Of a stretch of DNA of 44,742 bases, positions 11,982 through 17,064 are shown piece by piece. Both the position numbers and the translations under genes were made by a program. Under the pieces are notes generated by a model, which worked only from the letters and a program-made list of their open reading frames with translations, did not search any database and was not told the origin of the DNA. Source of the DNA: Pseudomonadota bacterium (GTDB lineage Bacteria; Pseudomonadota; Alphaproteobacteria; UBA1280; JAAZVW01); the NCBI GenBank assembly GCA_018623135.1, contig JAAZVW010000008.1:1-44742 (forward strand), in the 5' to 3' direction. The stretch's first letter is position 1. The number at the start of each line of letters is the position of its first letter.

Positions 11982-12740
11982 TTAAGGGGCGTTTGTTATA
12001 AGCTGTAACACCGACTTTTCTAACAGCTTTTGTAACTGGGGCAAATATTCATCCTCGGTTACTTTTGTGCCTTGGTGTAGTTCAAGGTAGCCTTGAGCTT
12101 TGGCAAAACTGCTTGGCTCAGCCTCAAAAGCCTGCAAAAGTAAAAACATTTGTGGGTTTAGTAGAATAAACTTTATTTCGTCTTCTGAATCTCGGTACAC
12201 AAGTAAAAAACTCGGCTGTGGCTCTGTCGGAATATTTTCAGGGGAAATTTCATAAACAGGGTAATTATACGCCAATACCCAAGAGGTGTTTTTAAGCTTT
12301 AGCAGGCTATTTTTATCAATAGATTTAAGCCTTGTGACTTGTCCCTTTAAACCCTCGTCTTCCTCTAGTGTTGAAAGGGCAAGTTCCACCCACTCATAGT
12401 GCATAAGCTCCAACATATAGGCAGGTAAATTCTGTTTTTCTTGCACATATTCTAAAAATTCTTCTGCAATTTCTCTAAATAAAGGCGTTTGAGAATGGTG
12501 ATGTTTAAAAAACTTGCCCACCATAGTCAGCCAATTATCCCCTAAGATATTTTTTGTAATAGGATAAGCAGATGCGCAAAAACCCTCCACATTATTAAAT
12601 AACAGCTGCTGATAAACGCCTATACGCTTAGCGGATAAACCTAAAGGTGTCGCGCCCTTTTCTTGGTCACGAATTGCTTTGGTAAATTCAAATTGCATAT
12701 CTATAAAATCTGCTCTGTTTTTATGGGGCATTCTTTTCAC
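11982..12740 (-). CDS. hvfC: HvfC/BufC-like RiPP maturation partner (DUF2063)
   Basis: A 252-residue protein with the DUF2063 signature: RIGVYQQLLFNNVEGFCASA, then ITKNILGDNW, SQTPLFREIAEEFLEYV and LMHYEWVELAL. In characterised systems this protein pairs with the MNIO enzyme and presents the precursor peptide to it. The C-terminal half is a small mixed alpha/beta domain that ends in a degenerate winged-helix-like segment. The start is either a GTG at 12740 that overlaps the maturase stop (GTGA) or an ATG at 12731; neither has a strong ribosome binding site, which fits translational coupling. It is the last gene of the operon, and no terminator is visible before the convergent ABC gene. Confidence 0.88.
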   Translation of the reverse strand: MKRMPHKNRADFIDMQFEFTKAIRDQEKGATPLGLSAKRIGVYQQLLFNNVEGFCASAYPITKNILGDNWLTMVGKFFKHHHSQTPLFREIAEEFLEYVQEKQNLPAYMLELMHYEWVELALSTLEEDEGLKGQVTRLKSIDKNSLLKLKNTSWVLAYNYPVYEISPENIPTEPQPSFLLVYRDSEDEIKFILLNPQMFLLLQAFEAEPSSFAKAQGYLELHQGTKVTEDEYLPQLQKLLEKSVLQLITNAP

Positions 12741-13546
12741 TTTTGTAATTGTTTTATATGTTTTACTTCTTTTATTAAAACATCTATAGGCGGAAAGTTA
12801 AAGTCTCGCTCTAAAAGAGTCGGTAAAGCACCAAACATTTTATAAGCCTCACCAAGAATCTGCCATACATCCGTGCTCACATTTGCACCATGTGTATCAA
12901 TAATAAGATCTGGCTCTTCTTGCAGATGCCCTGCTACATGCACATAACGTACATCTACATCTGCCATTTGCTCTAAAAACTCTGTCGGCGTATATTCTTT
13001 ATGGTTAATACTGTTAACATAAATATTATTAACATCTAACAGCAATGGGCAATTTGCCTCTTTTAACACAGCCTTTGTAAATTCAATTTCTGTCATTTGA
13101 TCGGTTGGTTTTGCGTAATAAGAAACATTTTCCATAATCAGCGGACGTTCAATAATATCTTGCACCTGCCTAATGCGCCCAGCCACATAATGCACAGCTT
13201 CTTCTGTAAACGGGATCGGCATTAAATCATACAAATGCCCCTCATCCGAACAATAGCTTAAATGCTCAGAATAAATATCAATCTGATACGCATCTAAAAA
13301 AGTTTTTACGTTTTTTACAAATTCAATATCTAAGGCTGTAGGTCCACCAATAGAAAGTGATAACCCATGACAAATAATTGGCCAAATTTCTGAAGCCTCT
13401 TGTAAATTTCTTTTAAATTTACCCCCCATTTGCATCCAATTTTCAGGCGCTATTTCTAAAAAATCTATTTCTGAAGACTGTGTTCGCAAAAGCTCTTCAA
13501 TAAAACCACGCCTTAACCCTAAACCTGCACCTTGTATCTGTTGCAT
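12737..13546 (-). CDS. hvfB: MNIO-family RiPP maturase (DUF692, HvfB/MbnB-like)
   Basis: A 269-residue TIM-barrel multinuclear non-haem iron oxidase. Related enzymes (MbnB, HvfB and the bufferin maturases) modify cysteines of precursor peptides into oxazolone/thioamide or thiooxazole groups using O2. Family residues are in place: EIAPENW at 31-37, H60, SEHLS at 93-97, the EN pair at 139-140, LLLDVNN at 168-174, HVAGH at 203-207, D217 and H219, and ERDFN at 246-250. Most of these are the expected iron ligands. A clean AAGGAT ribosome binding site precedes the ATG. It lies 60 bases after the precursor gene, with a hairpin in between, and overlaps the DUF2063 gene. Confidence 0.93.
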   Translation of the reverse strand: MQQIQGAGLGLRRGFIEELLRTQSSEIDFLEIAPENWMQMGGKFKRNLQEASEIWPIICHGLSLSIGGPTALDIEFVKNVKTFLDAYQIDIYSEHLSYCSDEGHLYDLMPIPFTEEAVHYVAGRIRQVQDIIERPLIMENVSYYAKPTDQMTEIEFTKAVLKEANCPLLLDVNNIYVNSINHKEYTPTEFLEQMADVDVRYVHVAGHLQEEPDLIIDTHGANVSTDVWQILGEAYKMFGALPTLLERDFNFPPIDVLIKEVKHIKQLQK

Positions 13547-13566
13547 TTTGCTATCCTTATAAAAAG

Positions 13567-13591
13567 AAAGCGCCCTATTTAAGAGCGCTTT
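13567..13591 (-). terminator. Hairpin between precursor and maturase genes (partial terminator or processing site)
   Basis: On the minus strand the stem AAAGCGC / GCGCTTT, extendable by two inner pairs, is followed by CTTTTT. It lies between hvfA (stop at 13607) and hvfB (start at 13546). There is little room for a separate hvfB promoter, so it probably lets only part of the transcription continue, giving more precursor than enzyme. Confidence 0.65.
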
Positions 13592-13606
13592 ATCTCTGAA
13601 ACGCTT

Positions 13607-13969
13607 TTAGTGTGCACCACCGCATTTGCCTTCGCCGCACTTACCTTCTTTGGCTTTCGCATCACCACCGCATTTGCCTTCGCCGCATTTGCCTTCTTTA
13701 GCTTTCGCATCACCACCGCATTTGCCTTCGCCGCATTTGCCTTCTTTGGTTTTCGCATCACCACCGCATTTGCCTTCACCACACTTACCTTCTTTAGCTT
13801 TATCCTTAGCATCGTCACCACCAAATATATCAAACAAGCCTGCAACTTGGTAACCTTGCTCTAGCTCTGTTGTTTGTGTCGGTGCCGCTTCAGCAGAAAC
13901 CGAAAGCGCTGCAGCCACGGCTGCTGTTGATAGACCCAATGCGAATTTTGTTTTTTTACAACCAGACAT
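13607..13969 (-). CDS. hvfA: HvfA-like RiPP precursor with eight EGKCG motifs (putative copper-binding peptide)
   Basis: A 120-residue precursor. It has a Sec-type signal peptide, with cleavage expected near residues 27-29. A short leader-like stretch containing GYQVAGLFDIFGG (39-51) precedes a Cys-repeat core. The core (60-118) is four units built on KEGKCGEGKCGGDAKA, with cysteines at 63, 68, 79, 84, 95, 100, 111 and 116, and C4 lies in the signal peptide. The EGKCG motif is the modification site in HvfA of Haemophilus, where modified cysteines bind copper. AAGGA precedes the ATG. The downstream maturase and partner genes support the call. The modification state and metal are inferred. Other frames are open across the repeat, but only this one has a signal peptide and ribosome binding site. 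Confidence 0.92.
   Translation of the reverse strand: MSGCKKTKFALGLSTAAVAAALSVSAEAAPTQTTELEQGYQVAGLFDIFGGDDAKDKAKEGKCGEGKCGGDAKTKEGKCGEGKCGGDAKAKEGKCGEGKCGGDAKAKEGKCGEGKCGGAH
13616..13792 (-). repeat. In-frame 48-base tandem repeat, 3.7 copies
   Basis: The Cys-repeat core of the precursor is encoded by near-identical 48-base units at 13745-13792, 13697-13744, 13649-13696 and a partial 13616-13648. Most differences are synonymous. The period of 16 codons keeps the frame, so unit gain or loss would change the number of EGKCG motifs by two per step. Confidence 0.93.
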
Positions 13970-14034: not shown

Positions 14035-14060
14035 TTCGGCAACTGACAAAAATAAGTTAC
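14035..14060 (-). promoter_or_regulatory. ECF-sigma-type promoter for the hvf operon
   Basis: On the minus strand GTAACT, 16 bases, then CGAA. This closely matches the GTAACC-N16-CGAA motif I recall for the Caulobacter ECF factor SigF, whose regulon includes bufferin (MNIO peptide) operons. Transcription would start near 14028, giving a leader of about 60 bases. It lies just downstream of the aspS terminator, so the operon appears to be independently transcribed. No ECF sigma or anti-sigma gene is in the window. Confidence 0.6.
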
Positions 14061-14062
14061 AA

Positions 14063-14094
14063 AAAAATAACCGCCTATTTAGGCGGTTATTTTT
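14063..14094 (-). terminator. Intrinsic terminator of aspS
   Basis: Thirteen-base stem AAAAATAACCGCC / GGCGGTTATTTTT with a six-base loop and a T-rich 3' arm on the minus strand, 12 bases after the aspS stop. Confidence 0.9.
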
Positions 14095-14106
14095 AAAGTT
14101 GTCCAA

Positions 14107-16038: not shown

Positions 16039-17064
16039 ATGAACGCTGTTTATCTTTTTATTATCAGTTTCTTTAGTCTTACAACAATTGGGCACACCCA
16101 AGCTTTAGATGCTTTTGTGGGCGTAGATGAAGGTAAGCTAGAAAATAGAACCAACCAAGTTAAACGTAACACCTCGGTGCTTGATCCTAAAACAACGGAT
16201 TATGAATTTAACGCCCGTGAATTTGTAACAAAAGCCGGTTTTAAGTACTCTGTACAAGGGCTTATAGAAGCTGCCGTACAAGGCAATATTGAGGTTGTAG
16301 ATGCCCTTATTGATAGCGGTAAAGACATAAACGCCAAAGATACAACAGGCTTAAATGCACTTATGTCTGCAACTGTTGCCAACCAACCCGAAATGGTGGC
16401 ACACCTTCTTTCTCGTGGTGCTGATCTAGAATCCAAAAACTTTAATAATGACACCGCACTTACGCTTGCCCTTACCGCAGGCTATCAAGATGTTGTACGC
16501 ATTATTTTAGCCTATAAACCCTTGCTTGAATATCATAACGATGAAGGTTGGTCACCTCTATTCTTAGCTCTTCTTAAACCTGATTTTGATATGGCTGCTT
16601 TACTCATTCAAAAAGGCGCAGATATTAACTATGCCGATAAAAACGGCCAAACACCGCTTATGTTTTCTATTCGTAAAAACTACGATAGCCTAACCAACGT
16701 TTTGCTAGAACTTGGTGCAGACGTAAATGCCGCCGATAATGATGGCAACACTGTTTTATTCTCAGCAACAGAGGCGATGGACTTTAACATGGTACAAAAC
16801 CTTATCGCTCACGGTGCTAATATTTATAAGGTAAACGATTATGGTGAAAGTGTTATTACACTTGCTGAATCCCTTAAAACACCTCAAATCGCTGATTTTT
16901 ACAGACGCTTGCAACGACGTGATTTACTACGCAAACGCTATGAAGAGATTCTAGAAAAGCGCGGGCTCACGGCAGAAGAAGCTCAAGAGCAAGAAAAAGA
17001 ATCTGAAGAATTTAAAAATAGCCTTTTCGAAAAAATGGGCATTAAGAAAAAAGCCAGCGAATAA
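16039..17064 (+). CDS. Exported ankyrin-repeat protein
   Basis: A 341-residue protein with an N-terminal signal peptide (about residues 1-22), so it probably acts in the periplasm. Residues 71-290 hold six to seven ankyrin repeats, seen as repeated GxDINxxDxxGxTPLM-like patterns such as GADINYADKNGQTPLMFS and GADVNAADNDGNTVLF. The C-terminal 50 residues are highly charged and probably form a coiled coil. Ankyrin repeats bind proteins; the partner is unknown. It is divergent from aspS and is a single-gene unit with its own promoter and terminator. Nothing indicates a host-directed effector role. Confidence 0.85.
   Translation: MNAVYLFIISFFSLTTIGHTQALDAFVGVDEGKLENRTNQVKRNTSVLDPKTTDYEFNAREFVTKAGFKYSVQGLIEAAVQGNIEVVDALIDSGKDINAKDTTGLNALMSATVANQPEMVAHLLSRGADLESKNFNNDTALTLALTAGYQDVVRIILAYKPLLEYHNDEGWSPLFLALLKPDFDMAALLIQKGADINYADKNGQTPLMFSIRKNYDSLTNVLLELGADVNAADNDGNTVLFSATEAMDFNMVQNLIAHGANIYKVNDYGESVITLAESLKTPQIADFYRRLQRRDLLRKRYEEILEKRGLTAEEAQEQEKESEEFKNSLFEKMGIKKKASE

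Follow-up and report, generated by a model that had tools for sequence, protein, structure and literature searches.

A probable EGKCG-type captophorin locus in a small-genome bacterial order

The genes and their products

The window, the whole 44,742-nucleotide stretch of DNA analysed, carries on its minus strand three genes in the hvfABC-type order of precursor, MNIO and DUF2063, and these lie where the initial annotation had placed them (13969-13607, 13546-12737 and 12740-11982, respectively). The genes, their family membership and conserved residues, and the hairpin and comparative pattern discussed further on, were computed directly. The features are:

11982..12740, minus strand: hvfC, DUF2063/RRE partner (PME-type 1), 252 aa; NF050145, PF09836, NGO1945_C, 3DEE
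12737..13546, minus strand: hvfB, MNIO maturase, 269 aa; NF003818, PF05114, 3BWW
13567..13591, minus strand: terminator/attenuator-like hairpin, 10-bp stem, 5-nt loop, tail CTTTTTAT
13607..13969, minus strand: hvfA-like precursor, 120 aa; signal peptide, leader motif, spacer, eight EGKCG
13615..13801, minus strand: 48-bp tandem repeat encoding the core, 3.9 copies, 92% matches, score 311
14060..14096, minus strand: terminator-like hairpin 3′ of aspS, AATAACCGCC-loop-GGCGGTTATT, T-run next

The precursor agrees with its earlier description as an exported 120-residue peptide whose EGKCG motifs, eight in all, fall into four units of 16 residues. By eye, residues ~1-29 look like a Sec-type signal peptide, the region of which includes the ninth cysteine, Cys4, and the motifs (at residues 60, 65, 76, 81, 92, 97, 108 and 113) form four doublets, each of the four units of the core being one such doublet. 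A tandem repeat with a score of 311 means that the array is not a chance one. Among NCBIfam models the precursor passes that for the HvfA-family metallophore repeat (NF050137; 92.9 bits, cut-off 19.5) and falls short of that for the HvfA equivalog (NF050188; 77.7 bits, cut-off 95), and on these scores its place would be in the wider EGKCG family rather than with the HvfA equivalogs. A Pfam search gave no match to it, and so it has no DUF2282; a search against plasmids, a weak one because of the BLAST low-complexity filter, also gave none. A signal peptide for export, here judged by eye, and repeated EGKCG motifs, usually in pairs, are the marks of an EGKCG-type captophorin precursor, and all are present. 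Of 60 related precursors, 57 have an L..GY motif ahead of their first KCG; in the window precursor the motif is LEQGYQVA, a candidate leader recognition site.

The maturase scores above the cut-off of its NCBIfam model (NF003818; 418.4 bits against 360) and matches PF05114 at 334.8 bits, while with the BufB model its 257.5 bits are below the cut-off of 310. Its solved relative is the Histophilus homologue 3BWW (E 2.5e-78), with which it has in common HGLSLS, EHLS, EN.SYY, LDVNNIYVN, H.AGH, DTHG and LLERDFNFPP, but not the insertion that 3BWW has between the AGH and DTHG motifs. On the basis of motifs and pairwise alignment rather than structure, Arg12-Arg13, Asp248 and Phe249 are equivalent to FonB Arg15/Arg16/Asp249/Phe250, which serve in the choice of Lys-Cys substrates and in catalysis, and Asn174, Asp217 and His219 can, through the 3BWW alignment, be provisionally equated with N175, D242 and H244, each shown to be essential in HvfB. 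The partner, HvfC, is also well above its cut-off (NF050145; 222.4 bits, cut-off 142), matches PF09836 (70.1 bits) and NGO1945_C (61.0 bits), and has 3DEE as its solved relative (E 4.7e-11). The two other components expected of a captophorin locus, an HvfB-type MNIO with its active site and Lys-Cys selectivity residues and an HvfC-type PME-type 1 partner, are present, and the earlier reading of an MNIO with intact metal-site residues beside a DUF2063 partner is borne out by equivalog cut-offs passed and essential residues kept.

The start of hvfC overlaps the stop of the MNIO gene by 4 bp. The upstream neighbour on the same strand reads as aspS, and the stretch with the hairpin 3′ of it folds strongly (72-nt fold, -24.4 kcal/mol, z -5.2). 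Since the terminator-like hairpin 3′ of aspS is a strong one, hvfA is likely to begin its own transcript, and the three genes are probably an operon with its own promoter. An ABC transporter gene downstream, on the opposite strand and convergent, ends 3 bp from the hvfC stop and is not counted in the operon. Inspection by eye found neither a copper-responsive regulator nor a recognisable copper operator adjoining the operon. Beside aspS, positions 16039-17064 encode what, from its translation, reads as an exported protein with ankyrin-type repeats.

Chemistry and purpose of the product

The hvfABC-like assignment, with its roles of precursor, maturase and partner, fits the curated NCBIfam models and the literature, and the accompanying proposal of a copper RiPP is consistent with the same sources. 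With hvfABC(D) of nontypeable Haemophilus influenzae (oxazolin) the window has in common the EGKCG precursor, the HvfB-type MNIO and the HvfC-type DUF2063 protein, but it is without an adjoining DoxX-like hvfD and its precursor is below the HvfA equivalog cut-off. The mmrA-C cluster of Microbulbifer (bulbicupramide), from another lineage, the gammaproteobacteria, has 5 to 8 EGKCG cysteines, in the strain studied arranged in two-Cys cassettes, and its product binds copper (PMC12538549). The captophorin clusters fonABC of Fontimonas thermophila and ngoABC of Neisseria gonorrhoeae have EGKCG repeats and an MNIO-PME1 pair as here, and differ in lineage and in repeat number, FonA having seven sites (PMC12668002). 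Bufferins 1 and 2 (BufABC; DUF2282, Buf_6/12Cys) also combine an MNIO and a DUF2063 protein with an exported Cys-rich precursor and copper, but their precursor family is a different one, and the window locus, with no DUF2282 and a maturase below the BufB cut-off, is not of the Buf1/Buf2 type.

Chemistry, export, copper binding and function are here taken from characterised relatives. Alkylation-assisted NMR of the products of FonA, HvfA and NgoA, all EGKCG precursors, gave 5-thiooxazole on the motifs, with 4 H lost per Cys, and copper binding was observed for the FonA and NgoA products (PMC12668002). By analogy, 5-thiooxazole, at -4 Da per Cys, would be the modification best expected of the window peptide, and copper binding would be expected also. 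It is very likely that the locus is of the EGKCG captophorin type (HvfA/oxazolin/Buf_EGKCG), making a Cu(I)-binding peptide with up to eight 5-thiooxazoles for copper buffering.

On this model HvfC would bind the precursor while it is still unmodified and not yet exported, probably by way of the leader region that carries LEQGYQVA, and would present each EGKCG cysteine to the iron-containing MNIO HvfB, which with O2 would convert each to a 5-thiooxazole with loss of 4 H, up to eight times per peptide. Sec export would then bring the modified peptide to the periplasm, where it would bind several Cu(I) ions, its most likely role being the buffering of excess copper.

That the same enzymes instead generate methanobactin-like oxazolone/thioamide groups, the first assignment for HvfA and the one used in its NCBIfam name and in Table 1 of a 2025 survey, is very improbable. 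The assignment for HvfA has since been revised, the NMR of the FonA, HvfA and NgoA products giving 5-thiooxazole and their absorbance at ~305 nm being unlike that of methanobactins (PMC12668002); the title of a 2026 HvfB preprint also says thiooxazole. Still harder to credit is an unmodified, metallothionein-like thiol array beside a decaying maturase, for which the Cys-rich sequence speaks and nothing more specific, and against which stand an HvfB and an HvfC of full length that are intact, score above their equivalog cut-offs and retain their essential residues.

A main purpose other than copper buffering for the 5-thiooxazole peptide, whether copper acquisition or delivery to a cbb3 oxidase, protection from oxidative stress, or the binding of another metal, is unlikely, though less so than either of these. 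Two P1B ATPases are encoded in the assembly, one CopA-like with an HMA domain and one of FixI/CcoI type within what looks like a FixGHIS cluster (G000:C68); the pair appears consistent with copper efflux together with a copper-requiring cbb3 oxidase, and the FixI-type enzyme, in suggesting such an oxidase, lends something to the idea of delivery. Stress roles are suggested by the DoxX and redox genes that lie close to some relatives, and PMC12668002 leaves open what EGKCG products do physiologically. The preference for buffering of excess copper comes from reports that excess metal, not starvation, is a frequent inducer of such pathways, and that bufferins improve growth under copper stress.

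The hairpin between precursor and maturase genes

The 66-nt gap between hvfA and hvfB has a fold of -19.5 kcal/mol (z -3.2) that is beaten by 1 of 200 shuffles, and a terminator-like hairpin arises in 4 of 500 shuffles of this gap. Among 31 loci with a gap of 50-320 bp, the window's own included, 22 have a terminator-like hairpin with a stability of 12 kcal/mol or more, where shuffles gave a mean of 0.45 and a maximum of 2, keeping in mind that several of the loci, from Shewanella and Kangiella, are close relatives and not independent. The stems vary in sequence among genera, so that the hairpin seems to be recurrent rather than one inherited element.

Terminators between adjacent co-directional genes are common in general, a scan of the whole region picks up terminator-like sites just as often once it is shuffled, and in the closest order members hvfA and hvfB stand without any gap between them; for these reasons the case for the hairpin is suggestive only. 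At the window locus it likely results in more precursor than enzyme, and its position 3′ of the precursor gene would probably permit the excess to be large. That across EGKCG loci the recurrent hairpin is an attenuator setting a high precursor to maturase ratio, possibly tuned by repeat number, is put forward tentatively, its chances being a little under even. The EGKCG-family papers searched for a precursor-maturase hairpin made no mention of one, and nothing on attenuators within operons for RiPPs came out of a literature search with the terms used. The pattern offers a simple testable idea for how many substrate peptides are provided per enzyme.

Relatives, distribution and descent

A scan of GTDB genomes with HvfB yielded 80 loci at 56-61% identity, nearly all gammaproteobacterial, the betaproteobacterial members being three Nitrosomonas. 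In 60 related precursors the number of EGKCG motifs ranges from 1 to 16, with 8 and 12 the commonest, and the doublets recur with periods of 17 (65 cases), 16 (23) and 18 (17). No special status thus attaches to eight motifs or to 16-residue units, the one being among the two commonest counts and the other the second commonest period, and the novelty earlier seen in the eight-motif array does not stand, counts of 8-16 and 16-residue periods being common. Buf_EGKCG/oxazolin precursors number ~2,000, mostly from Pseudomonadota; a single protein has as many as 58 Cys, and the core genes occur in various combinations (PMC12452194).

The initial annotation was right that no DoxX-like fourth gene adjoins the cluster, which is accordingly not of the four-gene hvfABCD form. 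The assembly, 85% complete, has a single DoxX match (L093 1402-1653; G000:C65), which is cut by a contig end, and no MNIO gene is nearby in the stretch read. Among the 79 relatives having enough downstream sequence, 24 have a DoxX-like gene close by, possibly an undercount as the survey profile was built from one seed, and ~70% are without. Clusters lacking DoxX are therefore the rule and, with mmrABC already published, the ‘minimal three-gene version’ is neither a novelty nor a special form.

Of the 58 same-class genomes listed, 36 have GcrA, whose other matches are to Caulobacter and one archaeal control only, and for this reason the class is indirectly inferred to be Alphaproteobacteria, the window's own assembly having neither GcrA nor 16S. 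Within the class HvfC exceeds its cut-off in 4 of 289 sampled genomes, all of the window's order and its own genome among them, and MNIOs in sampled genomes of the class outside that order are at most 40% identical to the window HvfB. In the sampled class an HvfC/HvfB pair of this type is found only in the window's own order. The tree groups the window HvfB with those of two order relatives, G003 and G005 (99/95), leaves that of a third, G002, unresolved, and sets six non-HvfB-like MNIOs of the class on a separate branch (100/100). These data fit an acquisition long ago from a gamma- or betaproteobacterial pool, its direction being set neither by a tree that is rooted at midpoint only nor by 80 loci that were chosen by similarity.

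The window locus is an ordinary member of a family on record in hundreds of other bacteria. What is gained is the extension of this known copper-peptide family to a small-genome order in which hvfABC recurs; the distribution in the order and the hairpin pattern leave the understanding of the EGKCG family unchanged. Three of the five other genomes of the order have hvfABC, in the stretches read none of the three has DoxX after it, and the G003 precursor carries its EGKCG motifs, twelve of them, in units of 16 residues. All three (L095, L096 and L097) have a kbl-like gene, for 2-amino-3-ketobutyrate CoA ligase or a similar aminotransferase-fold protein, upstream of hvfABC, unlike the window, where hvfABC follows aspS. 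In G002 (L097 2334-3191, C5) a single MNIO/DUF2063 pair is preceded by two precursor genes in tandem, whose KCG motifs are divergent.
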